From an uncultured Acidobacteriota bacterium (lineage in GTDB: Bacteria > Acidobacteriota > Vicinamibacteria > Vicinamibacterales > UBA2999): a stretch of 46,773 bases of DNA. Location of the stretch: positions 14,203 to 60,975 of the forward strand of contig CADEFD010000002.1 of assembly GCA_902826515.1 (NCBI GenBank), given 5' to 3'. Positions within the stretch are counted from its first letter, which is position 1; each line of letters begins with the position of its first letter. The notes under the pieces were generated by a model. The model was not told the origin of the DNA, searched no databases, and worked only from the letters and a program-made list of their open reading frames with translations. The position numbers and the translations under genes were made by a program. Of this stretch, positions 1,689 to 11,424 are shown piece after piece.

Positions 1689-2462
1689 CTACGGCTGCGG
1701 CGGCGCGGCCTTCTCGGCGCCGCTGTAGCTGAACTCGGCAGTGGCCGACCCGCCAGGCGCGACGTCCACGGTGGCCGTGAGCGGGCCGTAACGTTCGTGC
1801 CACACCTGCACCACGCGGCGGCCGGCGGGCACGTCGCGAATCTCGAACGTGCCGGCCGTGCCCGTGACGGCGAAGTACGGATGGTCCACCACGGCCACGT
1901 AGACGTTCATCCAGCCGTGCACGTCGCAGGTCACGCGCAGCATCTTCTCTTCGTGCGCCATCACGACGGTGAAAGGCGGGCGGCCCACGACCTGACTCAC
2001 GTTGAACGTGTTGCCCTTCGCCGAGAGGGCGTGCACGTTGTGGAGGGTGGGATCGGCGTTGCGCACCTCGAGCGTCTGCCCGCGCTGCATGGCAAGCACG
2101 CGCGGACGGAACATGCAGCCCTGCTGATCGAGCACCACACGCGAGGCGGGCGCCGGCGCACCCGGCAAGGGCCCCCGGACTTCGACGAACACGTTCGCCA
2201 GGGCGCCGTCGGCGGCCTGCACCACGAAGTCGTGCGTGGGCCGGATGTCGCCGTAGGCGCGGCCGCACGCCGGGTCCACACCCATCCGCACCACGGGGTT
2301 GACCGGGGCGGGGCCGGTGAGCCGCACGCGGCCGGTGATGGTGCCGGTGCCACCGGGCTGGGGGCCGACCGTCGCGGCCGGCGACGCCCCGGCAGCCGCC
2401 ATCGTCGCGCCGAACATCGCGGCGGCGACCGCGGCCACCGCCGCCCGCCGCGCCGGTGTCAC
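1689..2462 (-). CDS. Exported carboxypeptidase-regulatory-like / cupredoxin-like protein
   Basis: A 257-residue exported protein. The start is a GTG whose bases overlap the stop of the cytochrome gene upstream (GTGA), followed by a signal peptide rich in Ala. The N-terminal half begins with GTITGRVRLTG, typical of carboxypeptidase regulatory-like (transthyretin-type) beta-sandwich domains. The middle has His-Asn-Val-His followed about 45 residues later by CDVHGWM. The spacing Cys-x2-His-x2-Met is that of the copper-binding loop of plastocyanin-type cupredoxins, so copper binding in the periplasm is possible. The C-terminal part (TFEIRDVPAGRRVVQVWHE) looks like a second regulatory-like unit. 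Linkage to a CxxCH cytochrome fits electron transfer. Copper binding is my inference. Confidence 0.7.
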   Translation of the reverse strand: MTPARRAAVAAVAAAMFGATMAAAGASPAATVGPQPGGTGTITGRVRLTGPAPVNPVVRMGVDPACGRAYGDIRPTHDFVVQAADGALANVFVEVRGPLPGAPAPASRVVLDQQGCMFRPRVLAMQRGQTLEVRNADPTLHNVHALSAKGNTFNVSQVVGRPPFTVVMAHEEKMLRVTCDVHGWMNVYVAVVDHPYFAVTGTAGTFEIRDVPAGRRVVQVWHERYGPLTATVDVAPGGSATAEFSYSGAEKAAPPQP

Positions 2463-3115
2463 TGCGGCTTCCGGCGCATCGACGGCAAAACCGCCGGTGC
2501 GCCTCCTTTCGGATACCAGTACTCGCTGTGGCACGCCTCGCAGGCGCGGTCCAGCAGGTCCCCGGCTTCCGAGAGCTGGTCCACGTTCTTCGCGTCGGCG
2601 GCGCGAATGGCCAGCACGGCGGCGTCGATGAGTCCTTGAGAGAGGCGCGCGAACTTCGTCCGGTCGCGGTCGATCAGGATCTGAATCTGTTCGGGCGGCA
2701 GGTCCTCCGGGGCGGGCGGCTCGTCGACCAGACTCGGAATGGGCGTGGCCGGCGCGACCTTGCGGCCGGGCACGCGCAGCAGGTTGGCCGATTCCGCGAG
2801 GATGAGGGCATGGCGCCGCACGGCGTACCAGTCTTCGTTGGTGCGCGGCACGGTCTCGACCACGCCGGCCGCCGTGATGTCGAACGACACCGAGTCCCAG
2901 ATCGTGTCGGCCGACGGATCGATCACGCCGTGCATCAGTTCCTTGATCGTGCCGGTGATGACGTAACGCGAGGTCGGCGTCGAGCGCGGCTGCGCGACCG
3001 GGGCGGCGCCGACGGCCGCGGGCTTCGCCGTGGAGCCCGGCGTCTGCGCCGCCGCGAGATCCGGCACGGCGATGAGCGCCGCCAGCACGGGAACGATCCA
3101 GGAAGACGTTCGCAT
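2459..3115 (-). CDS. Exported c-type cytochrome with one CxxCH site
   Basis: A 218-residue exported protein with a signal peptide (hydrophobic core WIVPVLAALIAV, cleavage near LAAAQ). The only heme-binding motif is CEACH close to the C terminus (about residue 199), followed by SEYWYPKGG. A single CxxCH near the end of a helical protein resembles class II (cytochrome c prime-like) proteins. The region before it, with DRDRTKFARLSQGLIDAA, is predicted helical. The start was taken at 3115 because a GGAG box lies 6 bases upstream and because the longer alternative has no signal peptide. It is translationally coupled to the cupredoxin-like gene that follows. The physiological partner is unknown. 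Confidence 0.75.
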   Translation of the reverse strand: MRTSSWIVPVLAALIAVPDLAAAQTPGSTAKPAAVGAAPVAQPRSTPTSRYVITGTIKELMHGVIDPSADTIWDSVSFDITAAGVVETVPRTNEDWYAVRRHALILAESANLLRVPGRKVAPATPIPSLVDEPPAPEDLPPEQIQILIDRDRTKFARLSQGLIDAAVLAIRAADAKNVDQLSEAGDLLDRACEACHSEYWYPKGGAPAVLPSMRRKPQ

Positions 3116-3189
3116 CACACACTCCATGCAACGGGACAGGCGCCTGTCCGGCGTTGATGGTAGACCATACGCGCATGCGGCACGCACGG

Positions 3190-3195
3190 TAGAAT
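3190..3195 (+). promoter_or_regulatory. Probable -10 box (TAGAAT), short or absent leader
   Basis: TAGAAT lies 9 bases before the GTG start at 3205 in the divergent gap between the cytochrome gene and the first DUF6644 gene. No Shine-Dalgarno-like stretch lies between them, so transcription would begin at or very near the start codon. Confidence 0.45.
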
Positions 3196-3204
3196 CACCG
3201 CGCT

Positions 3205-3696
3205 GTGCACGAATGGCTCGTGTGGCTGGAATCGACGGCCGTCTCCACCTGGGTGCGTGAGTCGGGATCGCTCTGGGCGTACCCGATGGTGCTCACCGCG
3301 CACACGGTGGGCATGAGCCTCCTCGTGGGCGCAAACGCCGTGGTGAACCTTCGCCTGCTCGGCGTGGCCCCGCGCGTGCCGCTCGGACCGCTGGCGGTCG
3401 TGTTCCGCGCGTTGTGGGCCGGCGCCGCCATCAGTCTCGTATCGGGGCTGCTGCTCTTCGGCGCCGACGCCTCGACGAAAGGCGCCACCACGGTGTTTTT
3501 CGTGAAGCTGGCATGTATCGCCGCGGCGATCGTGGTGGCCTGGCGGCTGCGGCGCGCCTTCGCCGGCGCCGACGCCGCCGACAACGCCGTGCCGTCCGGA
3601 CCCTCGCGGCTGCTGGCCGTGGTGTCGCTGCTGCTGTGGGCCGGGGCCATCACGGCCGGCCGCTTCATGGCGTACCTCACGCCGGGGCCGTCGTAG
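3205..3696 (+). CDS. DUF6644-family membrane protein, copy 1
   Basis: A 163-residue integral membrane protein with four predicted segments (about residues 25-52, 68-90, 100-118 and 132-155). It resembles the DUF6644 family, whose function is unknown. Shared family features are a His in the first segment (TAHTVGMSLLVG), NLRLLGVAPRVPL at the end of that segment, and a GRFMAYL ending. A GTG start is used; it is preceded by a TAGAAT box. It is followed after two bases by a second, diverged copy, so the two may form a heterodimer. The conserved membrane His residues would allow heme or metal binding, but that is only a guess. Confidence 0.7.
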   Translation: MHEWLVWLESTAVSTWVRESGSLWAYPMVLTAHTVGMSLLVGANAVVNLRLLGVAPRVPLGPLAVVFRALWAGAAISLVSGLLLFGADASTKGATTVFFVKLACIAAAIVVAWRLRRAFAGADAADNAVPSGPSRLLAVVSLLLWAGAITAGRFMAYLTPGPS

Positions 3697-3698
3697 CG

Positions 3699-4202
3699 AT
3701 GGGCACCGCCGAACTGGAACAGTTCGCCGCCTGGCTGCGCGAGACGGCGCCGTCGCAGTGGGTGCGCGCGTGGCCGTGGACGTGGGCCATCTGCGAGACC
3801 CTGCACTTCATCGGGCTCTCACTCGTCATCGGCATCATCGGACTGCTCGACCTGCGGCTGATGGGCTTTCTGCGCCGCATCCCGCTGGCGGCGCTGCGGC
3901 CGCTGCTGCCGTACGGCATCGCCGGCTTCGTCCTGAACGCCGTGACCGGCGTCGTCTTCTTCGTGGGCACGCCGGAGCAGTACGTGACCAACATCGCCTT
4001 CGCGATGAAGATGTTGTTCCTGGTGCTGTCGGGCCTGAACGTGCTGTTCTTCGAGACACGGCACGGCCACCGCGTGCTCACGCTCGCCCCCGACGCGCCG
4101 ATGCCGGCGGCGTTCAGGCGGGCGGGTGCGATCTCGCTCGTCTGCTGGCTGATGGTGCTGTACTGGGGCCGGATGTTGCCCTACATCGGCAACGCGTTCT
4201 GA
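3699..4202 (+). CDS. DUF6644-family membrane protein, copy 2
   Basis: A 167-residue membrane protein with four hydrophobic segments, related in layout to the gene just before it. Matching motifs are ETLHFIGLSLVIG with a central His, DLRLMGFLRRIPL, a Lys in the third segment (AFAMKMLFLVL), and WGRMLPYIG near the C terminus. It starts 2 bases after the stop of copy 1 and is certainly in the same transcript. It ends 16 bases before the convergent DUF6152 gene. The function is not known. The conserved HFIG and Leu-Arg-Leu motifs in both copies suggest shared structural or cofactor roles. Confidence 0.7.
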   Translation: MGTAELEQFAAWLRETAPSQWVRAWPWTWAICETLHFIGLSLVIGIIGLLDLRLMGFLRRIPLAALRPLLPYGIAGFVLNAVTGVVFFVGTPEQYVTNIAFAMKMLFLVLSGLNVLFFETRHGHRVLTLAPDAPMPAAFRRAGAISLVCWLMVLYWGRMLPYIGNAF

Positions 4203-4218
4203 CCGCCCCCTGGGGGGA

Positions 4219-4605
4219 CTAGCCGCGGCGCCCCACCGGCGTGCCGTCGAGCAGCGTGAAGCGGGCGCCGGTCATGCCGTGCGAGCCGGGCGCGCGCGAG
4301 GGGCTGCCGACCACCTTCACCACGGTGCCCACCGGCAGCGTCGCCGGCGTCCAGCCGAGCGAGGCCGCGGCGGCCATCTCGATCTGCCACTCGACCTTCT
4401 GGCCCTTCTCGTCGGTGCCTTCGAGGAACACCCACGAGTGCGGGTTCTTGAGCAGCACGCGTGTCACCGTGCCCTGCGTCTCGACCTTCTTCGTTTCGTC
4501 GTAAGCGGCAGCGGCCGAATGATGCGCGGCCAGCGGCCCGGTGCTCGCGAGCAGGGCCACGGCGACAGCCGCGGCCACGATGCCTCTGCAGAAAGGAACG
4601 GTCAT
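4219..4605 (-). CDS. DUF6152-family exported protein
   Basis: A 128-residue exported protein with a signal peptide ending near LAAHHS. After cleavage the mature protein would begin with the His-His-Ser motif typical of the DUF6152 family. It continues with GTVTRVLLKNPHSWVFLEG, the most conserved part of that family, and an OB-like beta pattern (VGTVVKVVGSPSRAPGS). The paired His at the mature N terminus would suit metal binding, but no function is established. A GAGG box precedes the start. The gene follows an exported protein of unknown family (4630-5448) by 24 bases in the same direction and converges on the DUF6644 pair. Confidence 0.75.
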   Translation of the reverse strand: MTVPFCRGIVAAAVAVALLASTGPLAAHHSAAAAYDETKKVETQGTVTRVLLKNPHSWVFLEGTDEKGQKVEWQIEMAAAASLGWTPATLPVGTVVKVVGSPSRAPGSHGMTGARFTLLDGTPVGRRG

Positions 4606-4629
4606 TGGGAACCTCGCGTGTCTCGTCGC

Positions 4630-5448
4630 TTACTTGTACTTGGCCGGGATGAACTGCACCGACATGCGGGCGGTTTCCGGGTCACAGTCGAACGGCTTCA
4701 GCTTGTAGCCGGCCGCCGCCGGCAGCCAGCGCATCGTGTACGAGGCCGGCTGGCGCAGGAACATCGGATCCTCGACGGTCACGGTCGCCTTGAGCTGCTC
4801 GCCGTCGCGCCAGTAGCGCTCGGTCACCTTCTTCTGCGGCGACGACGGAATGCCGTTGTAGTCGTCGAAGCCGGTGATGTCGAACACGAAGTGGGTCGTG
4901 GTCACGATGAGGGCGTCGCCCTCGTAGCGGCCCACCGAGAGCCCCTGGATGCCGTAGTCGCTCACCTTCGGTTCGCGGCCGTCGAGCCACACCGTGCGCA
5001 GCTGGTCGTCCTTCTCGTAGCGCAGCAGCACGCGGTCGGGCCACTGCACGATCTCCATGTAGTACGGATCGAACTCGATGGCCGGCGGCGTGGCCGGCTG
5101 GCAGTCGTACTTCGGCGACAGCGGCTCGTCGAAAATCTTCTGGAAGGCGAGGCCGCGTTCGTTGAGCACCGGGAAGTTCGACACGTAGTTCGCGTCGGCC
5201 TTGGTGCCATCGGGCAGCGTGCGGCCCACGGCCATGGTGCGCGCCCACGGGATCGTCTCGGAGTTGATCGGGTGGGCGCGGCCGGTGCCGTCCCAGACGC
5301 CGGCCAGATTCGGCACGGGCGAAGCCGCCTGTGCGGCCTGCGCGCGCAGGCGCGGCGTGGGATCGTCGGTCGTGGCCACAAGCGCCCCGGCGCACAGCGC
5401 CACGGCTATGTAGCGTGCGCGAACCAGTCGGCCGGTCCTGCTCTTCAT
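4630..5448 (-). CDS. Exported protein of unknown function (GVWD type)
   Basis: A 272-residue exported protein with an N-terminal hydrophobic segment and cleavage near RAQAAQA. The mature start, VPNLAGVWDGTGR, is a pattern common in exported acidobacterial proteins that often accompany DUF6152. Conserved-looking stretches are YYMEIVQWPDRVLLRYE, GREPKVSDYGIQGLSVG and TTTHFVFDITGFDDYNGIP. The alternating pattern and the phrase-like repeats suggest a beta-rich, lipocalin-like fold, but no catalytic motif is visible. An AGGAG box sits 6 bases before the ATG. The 24-base gap to the DUF6152 gene implies one transcript. Confidence 0.65.
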   Translation of the reverse strand: MKSRTGRLVRARYIAVALCAGALVATTDDPTPRLRAQAAQAASPVPNLAGVWDGTGRAHPINSETIPWARTMAVGRTLPDGTKADANYVSNFPVLNERGLAFQKIFDEPLSPKYDCQPATPPAIEFDPYYMEIVQWPDRVLLRYEKDDQLRTVWLDGREPKVSDYGIQGLSVGRYEGDALIVTTTHFVFDITGFDDYNGIPSSPQKKVTERYWRDGEQLKATVTVEDPMFLRQPASYTMRWLPAAAGYKLKPFDCDPETARMSVQFIPAKYK

Positions 5449-5601: not shown

Positions 5602-6819
5602 TCACGGCCGGTAGGCTTCGAGCACGACCTCCATGCGGCGATCGAACTTGTAGCCGGGGCCCACGGCGGCCCACACGGCCCGGTAGCCCTCGGCGCCGCG
5701 TTCGTTCAGCGCCAGGCACGCCGCACATGTCTGCTCGGTCTCGGGCGGCGGGCCGAATCCCACGAACCCCACGCCGCCGAGTTGCCCGCGATCGTCGGTC
5801 GAACGCGGAAACACGCCGGTCACGCCGTCGTAGCGGTAGCCGGCGAGGCGGCGGTCCTGCACGAAGTGCCGCACGAGCGCGCCCTCGTCGCGGGCGTAGG
5901 CGCCGCCCACGAGGCGGCCGTCGCCAGTGACGTCGAGCGTCTCGTCGAGGTTCCAGGTCGTGGCCCGGTGCCCCTCGGGCGGCGCGGCCCGCCGGCCCAC
6001 CGGCCGGATGAACAGCAGCTCGGCGCGGTCGAGCATCGTCCAGAGCGCCTCCACTTCGAAGCCGCGCCGCCGCTGCCGCTCGATGTGGTCGTTCAGGTTG
6101 GTGCGCGGCGAAGTCGCCGGCACCGCCGTTTCGTAGGCGGAGCCGGTGCCGTCGTCGTGCAGCAGGAACAGAATCCGCTCGCGTTCGCGCGTCACGGAAA
6201 GCGGCCCCAGCCACAGGGCCTGGGTCACGCGGAAGCTGGCGCGCGTGGCGGCGACGAAGCCGTCCCAGCCGCCCTTCTCCGTCGTGGCCTCGACGACGCG
6301 CGCCGGTCGCGGCACGGCGCCGGGCGCCTTCTCCAGGATGGCGACGTAGAGCGCCGGGTGTTCCCCGAGATCGTAGAAGCGGATCGCGTCGCCGCGGCGG
6401 GTCGTGGGCCGGAGGTAGTTCTGCGTGACGGTGAGCGCCGTCACGCCGAAGCCGTCGCCGGTGCGCCCGGCCACGCGCGTCTGGAGATCCGCGGCGGTTT
6501 CGGCAGTGAGAATCACGAACTGCGCCGGGTTCACCGGCTCACCGAGCGGCCTGGCGAGGATTACCGTGACCTCCTCGGCAAGCAGCGGGGGGCGCGGCTG
6601 CACCACGGTCGCCAGGCGGTAGCCCTGCGCGCCGAGTGCGTTCATGCGCTCTTCGAGGTCGAAGCCGTACCGGCGGACCTCGGGCACGAAGCCGCTGACG
6701 ATGCGATGGTCCCAGCGCGGATCGGCCGCGGCGGCGCCCACCGGCACGGGGGTCGCGGACGGACAGGCGATCAATGCGGCGGCGGCGACGAGGCTCAGGC
6801 GACGAAGGACACGCGACAT
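5602..6819 (-). CDS. Probable lipoprotein with DUF4177-like internal repeats
   Basis: A 405-residue exported protein. The start at 6819 gives a basic N terminus (SRVLRR), a hydrophobic stretch, and the lipobox-like Leu-Ile-Ala-Cys, so the mature protein would be anchored by the Cys. At least three segments share a pattern of a helix with Leu, then Gly-x2-Gly-Tyr/Phe, then a beta strand: LGAQGYRLATVV (early), RQRRRGFEVEALW (middle) and LNERGAEGYRAVW (near the end). That pattern resembles DUF4177-like units. No enzyme motif is visible. It is the last gene of the minus-strand signalling block, 47 bases after the histidine kinase, and has its own possible promoter box (TAGAAT on the minus strand at 6847-6852). 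Confidence 0.55.
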   Translation of the reverse strand: MSRVLRRLSLVAAAALIACPSATPVPVGAAAADPRWDHRIVSGFVPEVRRYGFDLEERMNALGAQGYRLATVVQPRPPLLAEEVTVILARPLGEPVNPAQFVILTAETAADLQTRVAGRTGDGFGVTALTVTQNYLRPTTRRGDAIRFYDLGEHPALYVAILEKAPGAVPRPARVVEATTEKGGWDGFVAATRASFRVTQALWLGPLSVTRERERILFLLHDDGTGSAYETAVPATSPRTNLNDHIERQRRRGFEVEALWTMLDRAELLFIRPVGRRAAPPEGHRATTWNLDETLDVTGDGRLVGGAYARDEGALVRHFVQDRRLAGYRYDGVTGVFPRSTDDRGQLGGVGFVGFGPPPETEQTCAACLALNERGAEGYRAVWAAVGPGYKFDRRMEVVLEAYRP

Positions 6820-7689: not shown

Positions 7690-8175
7690 CTATTCCTTGG
7701 GTTCCCACGTGCACCAGTAGCCGGCGATCCGGGCCGTGGCGCCTTCGGTCGTGTCGTGTTCGCGGCCGCGCGCGCGCCGCGCGGCATGCAGCTGGCAGTA
7801 CCGCTCCACATCGGCCGAGGCCCGGCGGATGTCCTCGAGGCTGATCGTCGCCGCGCCGCCGGCGTAGCGCACCGCCCGCTCGCCGAGCATCATCGCCACC
7901 GCGGTCACCGTCTGCCGGTCCTCGAGCCAGCGGTTGCCGAACTGGCGCATCGCCGCGAGGAACTTCGGCCGGAAGTTCCGGCGGATGTGACACACCGCGT
8001 CGAAGTCGAGCGCCGCGCGCAGGCCCACGCCCTGGCCTACGGCGAGGCAGCAGTCGTCGACGATCGCGTCAACGGCCCGTTCGAAGGCCAGCGTCTGGTC
8101 GGATCCGCCGTCGATGGTGGTGTCGAAACCGGGAGCGATCGGGCGAATGTCTGAACGCGTCATGTCGGTGTTCAT
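7690..8175 (-). CDS. Unknown protein, tandem paralogue A
   Basis: A 161-residue soluble protein of no family I recognise. Residues of about 35-130 align by eye with the gene just upstream (8214-8564) at about 40 % identity. Shared blocks are IVDDCCLAVGQGVG, AALDFDAV, the FLAA-x4-GNRW stretch, DRQTVTAVAMMLGERA and ADVERYC. The N terminus (about 30 residues) and the C terminus (HDTTEGATARIAGYWCTWE) are unique to this copy. The pattern suggests an all-helical fold with two conserved Cys, one near the start and one near the end of the common core. A GGAGG box is 5 bases before the ATG. The gene lies between the Ser/Thr kinase and the histidine kinase, so a signalling role is likely but unproven. 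Confidence 0.6.
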   Translation of the reverse strand: MNTDMTRSDIRPIAPGFDTTIDGGSDQTLAFERAVDAIVDDCCLAVGQGVGLRAALDFDAVCHIRRNFRPKFLAAMRQFGNRWLEDRQTVTAVAMMLGERAVRYAGGAATISLEDIRRASADVERYCQLHAARRARGREHDTTEGATARIAGYWCTWEPKE

Positions 8176-8213: not shown

Positions 8214-8564
8214 TCAGGCGATGGCCGCGGGCATGTCGGGGCTGAGCCCCTCACGCACGGCATTCATGCGGCAGCCGGTCTCGACGTCGCGCGAGGCCAG
8301 CTCGGCGGCGCGCAGGTCGATGGAGGGGGAGGAGGCGGCGTGGAAGAGCGCGCGCTGGCCGAGGTACCGGCCGACGGCCGTCACGCGCGGCCGGTCGGCC
8401 TCGTAGGAATTGCCGAGCACGGTGATGGCGTGGAGGAAGAAGCGGCGGTAGCGGTCGCGCCACCAGGCGAGGGCCGCAAAATCCACCGCTTTCTCCGTGC
8501 CGATGCCCTGGCCTGCCGCAAGCAGGCAGTCGTTGACGATGAAATCGATCTGGTCGGCGGACAT
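8214..8564 (-). CDS. Unknown protein, tandem paralogue B
   Basis: A 116-residue soluble protein that is essentially only the common core shared with paralogue A. Matching blocks are IVNDCLLAAGQGIG, KAVDFAAL, FFLHAITVLGNSY, DRPRVTAVGRYLGQRA and RDVETGC. No membrane segment or enzyme motif is visible. A GAGGAG box precedes the ATG by 5 bases. It follows the Ser/Thr kinase gene by 91 bases and precedes copy A by 38 bases, so all are probably one transcript. The shared GQGxG turn and the conserved Cys near each end are the features to track in a family search. No function can be given. Confidence 0.6.
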   Translation of the reverse strand: MSADQIDFIVNDCLLAAGQGIGTEKAVDFAALAWWRDRYRRFFLHAITVLGNSYEADRPRVTAVGRYLGQRALFHAASSPSIDLRAAELASRDVETGCRMNAVREGLSPDMPAAIA

Positions 8565-8655: not shown

Positions 8656-11424
8656 TTACGGGAGGCGGGTGCGAAGGGCCCGCAGCGCCGTACGGACGTC
8701 GGCGGCGCTGGCCGGGCGGCGGCTGGCGACTCGCGACAGCGCGTCGTTCAGATACGCCGCCACCGCGGCCGGACACTCGGGGCGCACGTCGCGGAGGTCG
8801 GCGACGGTCGTGTGCTGGATGGCGTCCACGACCTCCGGCACCGGGCGTCCCGCGAAGGGATGGCGGCCGGCCATCGCCTCGTAGAGCACCATGTGCAGGC
8901 TCCAGAGGTCGAAGGCCTCGAGCGGCGGCGCGCCGGCCAGCGCTTCGGGCGACAGGTAAAGCGGCGTGCCCACCACCTGATGCGTGATCGTGAGGGTGGA
9001 CGACGCGTTCAGGTCGCGCAGCCGCGCCGCGAGTTCGGCCGGATCGGCGGGCATCACGGCGGCCGCCGCATCGGGCCCCTTCGAACGGTCGAGCATCGCC
9101 GCGAGTCCGAAGTCGAGCAGCTTCGGCACGCCGTCGGCGGTGTAGCCGATGTTGCTCGGCTTGATGTCGCGATGCAGCACACCCGAGCCGTGCACGCGGT
9201 CGAGCACGTCGGCCAGCATGATTCCGAGGTCGAGCGTCTCGTCCACCGGCATCGGGCCGCGCGCCAGCCAGTCGAGCAGCGTGCCGCCTTCCAGGAACTC
9301 GACGATGAGGATCGGCGTGTCGCGCCATTCCTCGGCGCCGTAGATCGTCGCCAGGTTCGGATGCAGCACCGAGGCCATCGCCCGCGCCTCGCGCCGCAGG
9401 CGTTCGGCGTATTCACGGCGCATCGGCGGCAGCGTCTTGATGGCCACCTTGCGGTCGAGCGCCATGTCGGTGGCGAGGTAGACGACGCCCGTGCCGCCGG
9501 CGCCGAGGAAGCGCTGCAGGCGGAACTTCGCGTTGACGAAGAGCGGCAGCACGGCGGGCCGCGTGGCCGTGCCGCAGCGGCAGCGGCGTGTGTCGGGGCT
9601 CGACGTCTCGGAGCAGTTGGGGCACCACGTCGCCGGTTCGTCCTGCCACGCCACGCCGCCCGCGCGCGGCGCCGGCGCACCGGCAGCCGCGGCGGTGCGC
9701 GTTTCGCGCAGCCAGCGGTTTTCGAGCTGCATCGCCGCCTGGCCGCACATCGCGGTGGCCAGCGCGACGTGGCGCTCCGTGTACGGCAAGTCGCTCGTGC
9801 CCGGACCGATCGCCACGACGCCCAGCAGTTCACCCGACGCGCCGACGAGCGGCGAGAGGACCTGCGCGGCGGTGGCGGCAATCCAGTCCTGATCCGCCTC
9901 GGGCAGCAGGCGCGCGAGCGCCGAACGCGCGTCCAGCAGCACCTCGCTGCGCGTCGTGTGCAGCAGATCGCCCAGCACGGAGTGACGCGGCAGCGGCGGC
10001 GCCGAGCCGTCGAGCGCCACGAGGCTGTCGGCGTCTTCGGCCAGCAGCAGCACCGTCACGCGGACGGCGTGCAGGGCGGCGGCGAGTTCTTCGGCGAGCG
10101 CGACGCTGATGCCGCGCAGGCTCTCGCTGCCGCGGAAGCGCCGCTCGAGGCGCGCCAGCACTTCGGCGGGGTCGAGCGGCTCGCGCAGGAACCAGCGGTC
10201 CACCGCGCCGATGAGCTGCGGCCGGAAGGTCAGCGCCAGCAGGCCGGTGCACGAGAAGGCGACGAGGCCGGCCGGGTGCCGCGTGTTCACGTACTGCACG
10301 AACGTCAGGCCGCGGTTCACGATCACATCGAGCGCGAGGTAGGTGACGGGCCCGAGGATCGCGGCCCAGATCGCGTACCGCGCCAGCGCGTACTGCAGCG
10401 TGGCGCGAATCACGAACTGCAGATCCATCACGCGGTTCACGGCCACGGCGTAGGCCGTCATCGGCACGATCGAGCCGAGCGCGAGATAGACGACGAGGCC
10501 GACGCGGCCGCGCACCTGCTCATCGCGCAGCGCCGGCACGAAGGGCGTGGCGATGACGGCGACGATGAGCGGCGCGAAGCCGAGGGCGAGCGCGCCGAGG
10601 AACCAGGCCACCTTGCGGCGGCGCTCCGCGGTTTCGACGCGGTAGCGCGCCACGAGGAACGCCACGGCCGGCACGGTCAGCGCGAAGAGCAGCGGCCAGT
10701 ACATCGACTGCGGCGCCTGACGGTCGAAGGCCGCGACGATCGCCGCGAGGCGCGGATGCAGGGTGGCCGACGCCTGCGCGCCGGCGAGCGTGATGAGGAA
10801 CAGCCCCGCCCCCGTGGCCGCCGCCGCGGTGATGAACGCGCCGGCCACGAGGCGCGCCCGCCGGGTCAGCGGCTCGCTCGGGAAACTCCACGCGAAGAGC
10901 CACACGCCGAGCGCGAACATCGACTCGGGCCGCAGCACCGCGAGCGCCGCCACGATCATGCCGGCCGGGCCGGTGATGCCGGCAAAGAACGGGTCGACGA
11001 ACGAGGCGGCGATCGTGAGATAGAGGCCGCCGAGCAATTGCAGCCGGCGATCGCGGCTGCCGCCGAAGACGAGCAGCAGCCCGCCCACGCCGAAGATGCC
11101 GAGATTGAGCGCGAAGAGGCCCGCCGGCGACGGCGCCCGCCCGATGGCGGCCGGCAGCACGGCGAAGGCCACAATCACCTTGATGGCGGCCAGTGTCACG
11201 CCGGCCACGAACGCCGCCACCACCGCCTGGCGCAGCCAGGGACGGCGAGCCGCGAGCCCGGCGCTCTGACGGCCACGCATCGCGGCGATGACGCGCAGTT
11301 GATGAATGAGATTGGCGTCGGCGGCCCCACCCGCCGCACCTTCCGCGGCGCGCCAGTCGATCGTGGCGCCGTCGGCGAGCGCGGCGGCCAGCGCGTCGGG
11401 GCGGGCTTCGCGCCTAGGCTCCAC
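8656..11424 (-). CDS. Membrane Ser/Thr protein kinase with GAF and zinc-ribbon regions, kinase at C terminus
   Basis: A 922-residue protein kinase with an unusual order. Residues of about 60-420 carry many hydrophobic segments. A GAF-like region follows (about 440-575), with LSPLVGASGELLGVVAIG. Next is a zinc-ribbon-like pattern, CPNC then ten residues then CRCG (about 595-612). A complete Hanks-type kinase occupies about 632-922: glycine loop GAGGTGVVYLA, VAIKTL Lys, catalytic HRDIKPSN, DFGLA, and GTPLYLSPE. Most bacterial kinases of this kind have the catalytic domain first. The gene's start overlaps the end of the ECF sigma factor by 11 bases. Sigma factors of this arrangement are known to be controlled by their partner kinase, so sensing of a membrane or cytoplasmic signal is likely. 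Confidence 0.9.
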   Translation of the reverse strand: MEPRREARPDALAAALADGATIDWRAAEGAAGGAADANLIHQLRVIAAMRGRQSAGLAARRPWLRQAVVAAFVAGVTLAAIKVIVAFAVLPAAIGRAPSPAGLFALNLGIFGVGGLLLVFGGSRDRRLQLLGGLYLTIAASFVDPFFAGITGPAGMIVAALAVLRPESMFALGVWLFAWSFPSEPLTRRARLVAGAFITAAAATGAGLFLITLAGAQASATLHPRLAAIVAAFDRQAPQSMYWPLLFALTVPAVAFLVARYRVETAERRRKVAWFLGALALGFAPLIVAVIATPFVPALRDEQVRGRVGLVVYLALGSIVPMTAYAVAVNRVMDLQFVIRATLQYALARYAIWAAILGPVTYLALDVIVNRGLTFVQYVNTRHPAGLVAFSCTGLLALTFRPQLIGAVDRWFLREPLDPAEVLARLERRFRGSESLRGISVALAEELAAALHAVRVTVLLLAEDADSLVALDGSAPPLPRHSVLGDLLHTTRSEVLLDARSALARLLPEADQDWIAATAAQVLSPLVGASGELLGVVAIGPGTSDLPYTERHVALATAMCGQAAMQLENRWLRETRTAAAAGAPAPRAGGVAWQDEPATWCPNCSETSSPDTRRCRCGTATRPAVLPLFVNAKFRLQRFLGAGGTGVVYLATDMALDRKVAIKTLPPMRREYAERLRREARAMASVLHPNLATIYGAEEWRDTPILIVEFLEGGTLLDWLARGPMPVDETLDLGIMLADVLDRVHGSGVLHRDIKPSNIGYTADGVPKLLDFGLAAMLDRSKGPDAAAAVMPADPAELAARLRDLNASSTLTITHQVVGTPLYLSPEALAGAPPLEAFDLWSLHMVLYEAMAGRHPFAGRPVPEVVDAIQHTTVADLRDVRPECPAAVAAYLNDALSRVASRRPASAADVRTALRALRTRLP

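Follow-up and report, generated by a model that had tools for sequence, protein, structure and literature searches.

Paired DUF6644-like genes, DUF6152 and GVWD form a co-inherited gene cluster in Acidobacteriota with a possible role in copper handling

Six genes at one locus

The window analyzed here is a stretch of 46,773 nucleotides from contig CADEFD010000002.1 of an uncultured Acidobacteriota bacterium (Vicinamibacterales; genome of 5.85 Mb in 418 contigs). At 1689-5448 it carries six genes in three groups: a leftward cytochrome and cupredoxin-like gene, a rightward pair of genes for DUF6644-like membrane proteins, and a leftward GVWD and DUF6152 gene. We show that GVWD, DUF6152 and the DUF6644-like pair are co-inherited and clustered and that a second, diverged set is present in the same genome. 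An earlier, sequence-only reading had listed six genes together here, and gene calling places all of them at about those positions. The calls come from a simple codon-usage caller, and gene starts are uncertain.

1689..2462, minus strand: exported cupredoxin/carboxypeptidase-regulatory-like protein (gene call; alternative start 2438)
1908..1928, minus strand: CDVHGWM, the Cys-x2-His-x2-Met motif of the cupredoxin-like protein (sequence)
2459..3127, minus strand: exported c-type cytochrome, cytochrome c'-like (start uncertain: 3127, 3115 or 3088)
2528..2542, minus strand: CEACH, the CxxCH heme-attachment motif of the cytochrome (sequence)
3128..3204, no strand: intergenic gap between the divergent cytochrome and DUF6644-like genes (gene calls)
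3205..3696, plus strand: DUF6644-like membrane protein, first of the pair, type 1 (sub-cut-off PF20349 match, alignment A6, tree)
3301..3303, plus strand: type-1 His33, conserved, in the membrane (43/43 type-1 rows reaching the column)
3699..4202, plus strand: DUF6644-like membrane protein, second of the pair, type 2 (predicted four-helix membrane bundle)
3804..3806, plus strand: type-2 His36, invariant, in the membrane (37/37 type-2 rows; aligned with CopD His164 in alignment A7)
4219..4605, minus strand: DUF6152 protein, exported, predicted OB fold, candidate copper binder (PF19649 and model)
4519..4524, minus strand: DUF6152 His28-His29, predicted first two mature residues (invariant in alignment A5)
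4438..4440, minus strand: DUF6152 His56 of an Asn-Pro-His motif ([NSD]PH in 76/76 complete sequences; invariant in A5)
4630..5448, minus strand: GVWD protein, exported, of no known family (upstream of DUF6152, same direction)

The cupredoxin-like and cytochrome genes share 4 overlapping bases and are probably coupled for that reason. Two bases separate the DUF6644-like genes, and 24 separate GVWD from DUF6152, which converge with the pair. The gap at 3128..3204 is, from the gene calls, likely a shared promoter region.

The products and their families

DUF6152 is firmly assigned, scoring 74.7 bits (E 6.6e-21, residues 18-111) against PF19649, whose Pfam gathering score is 27. This is its sole Pfam match at E<=10, and CopC (PF04234) is not among the matches. 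The membrane proteins are less direct cases. The first reaches 19.3 bits (E 0.0014) against DUF6644 (PF20349), under the gathering score of 27, and for the second no DUF6644 match was reported at E<=10, a limit under which HMMER filters still discard most matches above E 0.1. The second locus of the window genome, described below, holds a DUF6644 pair above the PF20349 cut-off, and since the window proteins are 33-37% identical to that pair, we take them to be homologous to DUF6644. The earlier description of two DUF6644 proteins therefore stands as a statement of homology and not of Pfam membership. Window and DUF6644 proteins share the arrangement in tandem pairs of four-helix proteins and differ in that the former fall below the cut-off or lack a match. 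DUF2214 (PF09980) may also be related: its model gives 17 matches (1.7e-7 to 9.5e-4), at least 12 of them on DUF6644-like genes by coordinates, with no match above its own cut-off in 40 genomes. Among named sequences, the second membrane protein is closest to those of two metagenome-assembled genomes titled Acidobacteria, at 94% and 90% identity.

For the GVWD protein neither Pfam (E<=10) nor NCBIfam (E<=0.1) gives a match. The cytochrome carries its CxxCH motif, CEACH, near the C-terminus; its similarity to cytochrome c' (PF01322) is below threshold (19.9 bits against a gathering score of 26.5). The cupredoxin-like protein does have the Cys-x2-His-x2-Met motif ascribed to it, but it has no Pfam cupredoxin match; its one Pfam match, also sub-threshold, is carboxypeptidase-regulatory (CarboxypepD_reg), and a homologue in locus L076 scores 20.0 bits to cupredoxin against a cut-off of 27. 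Full-text literature searches for 'DUF6152' and 'DUF6644' found no paper, with most subscription journals outside their coverage.

A co-inherited core

Two genome sets were compared, one of 59 genomes comprising the window's own and its relatives to order level, the other of 149 genomes across the phylum Acidobacteriota, each at least 90% complete. The searches scored a part of the candidates, so that copy numbers, and a few absences, may reflect undercounting; the counts are of genomes among the matches listed. DUF6644-like genes are present in 37 of the 59, DUF6152 in 37 and GVWD in 39, with all three families in 35 and none in 20. The four partial sets are in genomes 74-87% complete: G021 and G056 have DUF6152 and GVWD without a DUF6644-like gene, and G027 and G046 have DUF6644-like genes and GVWD without DUF6152. 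GVWD genomes are thus the exact union of DUF6152 and DUF6644-like genomes. For DUF6644 and DUF6152, whose co-occurrence the sequence-only reading had offered as its check, the outcome is strongly positive, with both in 35 genomes, each alone in two, and neither in 20. Two genomes, G001 (genus g1, 100% complete) and G029 (genus g11, 97% complete), lack all three families in genera whose other members have them.

The same association extends across the phylum, where 17 of the 149 genomes have DUF6644-like genes and 14 have DUF6152, the latter a subset of the former (both in 14, DUF6644-like only in 3, DUF6152 only in none). DUF6644-like genes occur in 14/14 DUF6152 genomes against 3/135 others (Fisher p 4e-17, kinship ignored), and each of the three exceptions has a single match, which is partial in one genome and at 1e-11 to 1e-12 in the other two. 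A search of plasmids gave no match to DUF6152.

Gene neighborhoods were read from 46 named loci, which were collected by scanning genomes for two peptide patterns of the second membrane protein and so favor its close relatives; several share a genome and many end at contig ends. Their titles are mostly Acidobacteria, with some Gammaproteobacteria and two Acidimicrobiia, one of them doubtful. A DUF6644-like gene was called in 45 of the 46, and the 49 runs of such genes comprise 42 pairs, 4 single genes and 3 longer arrays. Within three genes of them lies DUF6152 in 27/45 loci, GVWD in 23/45, any CxxCH gene in 20/45, a cytochrome of the window family in 6/45 and a cupredoxin in 1/45, this last in a close relative. 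Counted per gene, with near meaning up to three genes away and far six or more, and in the named set only, since some named loci duplicate DNA of other fetched loci, DUF6152 makes up 32/246 near genes against 7/172 far ones, and GVWD 34/246 against 9/172. This enrichment, together with the phylum-wide co-occurrence, leads us to reject a chance pile-up of six genes.

Gene order is also shared. Seven loci (L085, L087, L088, L089, L096, L098 and L104) have GVWD, DUF6152 and the first and second membrane protein genes in that order and in one direction, and the convergent layout of the window is seen again in other families, for example at G088:C274 and G238:C44. The second locus of the window genome (G000:C39, L201) carries a cytochrome, two DUF6644 genes, a gene of 330 residues, DUF6152 and GVWD, with a PQQ dehydrogenase beyond. 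Its five members shared with the window are 28-37% identical to their counterparts, the GVWD match spanning 107 residues. Because this locus has only the cytochrome of the two flanking genes, we regard the cytochrome as part of the unit in the window genome and the cupredoxin as outside it; absence here and the 1/45 count rule out the cupredoxin as a core member. The sequence-only reading had named separation of the two halves of the cluster as its refutation, and what we find is divided: the cytochrome stays, at the second locus and in part of the named loci, but the cupredoxin mostly separates. The core unit is GVWD, DUF6152 and the DUF6644-like pair, with the cytochrome as a frequent partner and the cupredoxin local to a lineage.

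Two titles among the loci are suspect. L105 (VFYY01000117.1) is titled Acidimicrobiia, but the DUF6152 matches of its genome (G159) equal in contig coordinates and scores those of G018, which belongs to the window's own family. The title looks wrong, and that of L104, from the same study, may be wrong as well.

Neighbors of the core and a possible electron-transfer role

Genes with CxxCH are enriched near the DUF6644-like genes (near 23/246, far 3/172), and remain so without the window cytochrome family (17/240 against 2/171, assuming that its 6 and 1 members all count). A tally of neighbor families covered 127 of 154 eligible near genes and 126/126 far genes, excluding five labelled families, genes of more than 1200 or fewer than 120 residues, and loci L083/L084. 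The families near the pair (n=127) include Cytochrome_CBB3 (7), Cytochrom_C (5), CytoC_RC (4), PQQ (4) and tannase (4), with regulators also frequent. None of these cytochrome, PQQ and tannase families is among the 25 listed for the 126 far genes, which puts each at no more than one there.

Such neighbors would suit an electron-transfer unit, in which the pair is a b-type heme protein, its heme held by the invariant His, shuttling electrons between periplasmic c-type cytochromes and the quinone pool, with DUF6152 and GVWD as accessory or substrate-binding proteins. The cytochrome at both loci of the window genome is consistent with this, and the best structural rows for the membrane protein include a two-heme bundle and cytochrome bd, although these lie beneath what is stated as noise for helical bundles. 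Each protein has, however, a single invariant His, so that both subunits would have to contribute to a bis-His heme. Nor does this account explain the invariant N-terminal His-His of DUF6152, and in 25/45 named loci, some ending at contig ends, the three nearest genes on either side lack CxxCH. We consider this role somewhat unlikely. The heme-b protein HemJ has a similar layout; in 60 genomes of the phylum no gene scored above the cut-off of its Pfam model.

Histidines at the predicted mature end of DUF6152

Alignment A5 of 43 DUF6152 sequences has five invariant positions, His28, His29, Gly45, Pro55 and His56, and Trp73 and Glu76 are at least 90% conserved. In 76 of 77 non-redundant genes the His-His follows Ala (74) or Gly (2), the 77th ending at a contig end, and position -3 is Val, Ala, Leu, Thr or Ile in 72/74 sequences long enough. 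The mature N-terminal His-His proposed by the sequence-only reading is thereby borne out as a prediction from sequence position. In a crude scan, His-His follows the predicted cleavage site in 34/49 DUF6152 proteins, against 0/172 other proteins (single His in 4) and 0/68 GVWD proteins. A Pro-His lies 26-29 residues past the His-His in 76/76 complete DUF6152 sequences, at a spacing of 28 in 63, and the three His positions are invariant even at 27% identity to the window protein.

A free N-terminal His and a second His make up the ligand set of a copper histidine brace (PMC10952591). The His-His and Pro-His of DUF6152 are, by their sequence, a possible candidate for such a site. The model of the protein (pLDDT 87.8) has an OB fold over residues 38-120. 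Its best VIA match, to PriB (Z 8.8, rmsd 3.0, 82 aligned), is little above the typical best of an unrelated model, and the VIA rows are consistently OB folds; the best Foldseek match is Rim1 (E 0.0019), with none at 0.001. The best relative by sequence in the PDB, an adhesin at E 0.0017 with no single stretch passing, was taken as chance.

These OB-fold matches are nucleic-acid binders, and GVWD (112 sequences) is diverse, with no conserved His set; what it conserves is two Cys (Cys116 and Cys255, 96% each), an invariant Asp227, a Glu and an Arg. Both points would fit a cluster that has nothing to do with metal, where DUF6152 and GVWD bind a ligand or assist secretion, the His-His is there for contact with a protein or for processing of the signal peptide, and the DUF6644-like pair acts as a chaperone or as a permease for small molecules. 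Against this stand the invariance of three His positions down to that low identity and the absence of His-His at the cleavage site of the other exported proteins scanned, and we think a metal-free role unlikely.

A further 20 loci were chosen for DUF6152, mostly from genomes with many DUF6152 copies, and here GVWD lies within two genes of 25/25 DUF6152 genes. Amidohydrolases, MBL-fold hydrolases, tannase/feruloyl esterases and PQQ dehydrogenases are found near DUF6152, in a tally without a far control. Copy number can be extreme, at least 120 in G153 (3.5 Mb), at least 91 in G155, at least 74 in G160 and at least 68 in G154, in genomes of 3.5-5.7 Mb. G153 is the genome behind locus L113.

The constant GVWD partner and the copy number keep alive the idea that DUF6152 and GVWD are secreted copper enzymes of the oxygenase or peroxygenase type, with GVWD forming the substrate pocket, DUF6152 holding the copper, and the pair and cytochrome feeding electrons or copper. 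Paralogue numbers that reach at least 120 in one genome would suit substrate-specific enzymes better than a carrier. The catabolic families near both DUF6152 and the DUF6644-like genes also count in favor. MBL-fold genes, however, are not enriched around the DUF6644-like genes (near 3/127, far 2/126), and outer-membrane barrels are commoner far (8/126) than near (3/127); we judge this account decidedly unlikely. In its fullest form, DUF6152-GVWD would be a new class of secreted mononuclear-copper oxidizing enzymes, built on an OB-fold subunit with an N-terminal His-His/Pro-His copper site and a fast-diverging GVWD that sets the substrate, with a DUF6644 heterodimer and a c-type cytochrome supplying electrons or copper. 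That proposal is a long shot. Were it true, these enzymes would be a periplasmic counterpart of the cytochrome P450 expansion.

A third DUF6152 of the window genome (L202 9000-9371, minus strand), outside the 77-gene tally, stands alone beside what appear by eye to be iron-sulfur cluster assembly genes.

A membrane pair with a possible distant likeness to CopD

The DUF6644-like proteins show the conserved helix His that the sequence-only reading had noted. Alignment A6 of 81 sequences has Gly39, Gly84, Lys104, Gly157 and Arg158 invariant, and His36 is His in 80/80 rows reaching its column, one of the 81 being incomplete there; type-1 and type-2 rows were assigned by identity to a few seeds. 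A tree of 58 of these rows, those in tandem (29 pairs), splits with 100/100 support into a clade of first genes and a clade of second genes, a division that spans Acidobacteriota and Gammaproteobacteria. A single row is misplaced; it belongs to the longer array of L092, where the first and second labels are off. Because the pair is ancient and jointly kept, we suggest that it is a heterodimer.

The second membrane protein is modeled as a four-helix membrane bundle (pLDDT 95.8). Neither a search by sequence (best row a cannabinoid receptor, E 0.025) nor Foldseek (best E 1.1) found a relative of known structure for it; its VIA rows stay below the stated helical-bundle noise level, at which kinship is still possible. 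In an hhalign comparison, a profile of nine CopD proteins aligned with the DUF6644-like profile over 101 columns with a score of 27.5 (P 0.0034), against 14.2 for a reversed profile and at most 19.3 for 60 block shuffles. His36, Gly45, Gly84 and Lys104 align with the CopD invariants His164, Gly173, Gly225 and Lys251 (A7), and a plain alignment with E. coli YebZ matches the first three as well. The CopD model weakly matches one DUF6644-like gene, at G042:C37 (E 1.9e-4). Judged from these profiles, DUF6644-like proteins appear distantly similar to the copper importer CopD. This likeness, which the sequence-only reading had not seen, speaks for copper no less than for heme. Of the electron-transfer unit proposed there, the co-occurrence and the retained cytochrome hold up and the cupredoxin mostly falls away. 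We also considered that CopD and DUF6644 might replace one another; CopD occurs in 12/60 genomes of the class, both with and without DUF6644-like genes, in no pattern, and the idea was dropped.

Some relatives are longer. At L081:7488-8432, L080:13201-14148 and similar genes the second DUF6644-like protein is extended at its N-terminus by some 150 residues of membrane sequence, in which several His are conserved and which has the motifs HIHLLLNH, THE and RHPEI and no significant Pfam match. The DUF6644 pair of L095 (CALQCC020000045.1), a metagenome-assembled genome titled Bordetella parapertussis, nests with Bryobacterales, and the bin is probably mislabelled.

A model for copper handling

We tentatively favor a model where the unit handles copper, with DUF6152 as the exported binder and the DUF6644-like pair as its membrane partner, in the manner of CopC and CopD and on a new fold; we hold it as the likeliest account, at somewhat less than an even chance. 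It is favored because the CopC/CopD arrangement is the nearest we find, an exported N-terminal-His protein beside a membrane protein with an essential His. DUF6152 would be exported and its signal peptide removed just before the His-His, and its ligands to copper would be His1, perhaps His2, the free amine of the N-terminus and the Pro-His histidine, much as CopC and DUF1775 hold copper on folds of their own. The pair, with four helices and one invariant membrane His and Lys in each protein, may jointly act as an eight-helix CopD that either receives copper from DUF6152 or passes electrons to and from it. GVWD would be the periplasmic partner of DUF6152, and the module may serve periplasmic oxidations in which neighboring c-type cytochromes and PQQ dehydrogenases take part.

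Precedents lie in known copper systems. Bacillus subtilis YcnJ requires both His24 (CopC) and His295 (CopD), and genes for CopC and DUF1775, both N-terminal-His proteins, often adjoin CopD genes (PMC13344008, PMC12362106). Like CopC-CopD and YcnJ (PF04234, PF05425), the module pairs a small exported protein, predicted to begin with His once mature, with a membrane protein that has an invariant His, and it is the C-terminal half of CopD to which the DUF6644-like profile aligns, with matches at four invariant residues. It differs in the predicted OB fold of DUF6152 and in its membrane part of two separate four-helix genes; CopC-CopD has no GVWD counterpart. The monohistidine brace of DUF1775 (YcnI) likewise has an N-terminal His and CopD-type neighbors, and a Trp and a Glu matter in it (PMC12362106); the conserved Trp73 and Glu76 of DUF6152 may be their counterparts. 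Unlike DUF6152, YcnI has a cupredoxin-like fold, and DUF6152 adds the conserved Pro-His.

Several observations count against a copper module. The 25 families most often found near the DUF6644-like genes include no copper gene, which separates the module from CopC-CopD and, with the cytochrome and PQQ dehydrogenase enrichment, keeps electron transfer in contention. Neither window membrane protein matched CopD (PF05425; gathering score 32.1) at E<=10, and hhalign's own probability for the CopD alignment is only 9.5%. No DUF6644-like gene was called in the 20 DUF6152-chosen loci with their 25 DUF6152 genes. The third DUF6152 of the window genome keeps Ala-His-His, but its next His, 27 residues on, lies in Gly-Ala-His and not in Pro-His. 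Finally, at least 120 DUF6152 copies in one genome would be odd for a copper carrier.

Gene order and presence or absence link three uncharacterized families, for which they suggest a joint role. If DUF6152 holds copper, OB folds too would offer an N-terminal-His copper site, and the range of CopD-like membrane partners would be wider than is now known. Among the exported proteins of some uncultured bacteria, DUF6152 and GVWD are also a large and unexplained fraction, with more than 60 DUF6152 in several genomes.

Further genes in the window

Other genes of the window were noticed in passing. At 7690-8175 and 8214-8564 (minus strand) lie two adjacent small Cys-containing proteins, alike by eye ('AxGQGxG', 'LGxRA'), with no Pfam match at E<=0.1. 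At 5602-6819 (minus strand) is an exported protein of no assigned family that matches DUF4177 weakly (E 0.1) and contains a CAAC motif. The gene at 8656-11424 (minus strand) encodes a large protein that by eye has a membrane part, a zinc-ribbon-like CPNC...CRC and a kinase-like C-terminal part.

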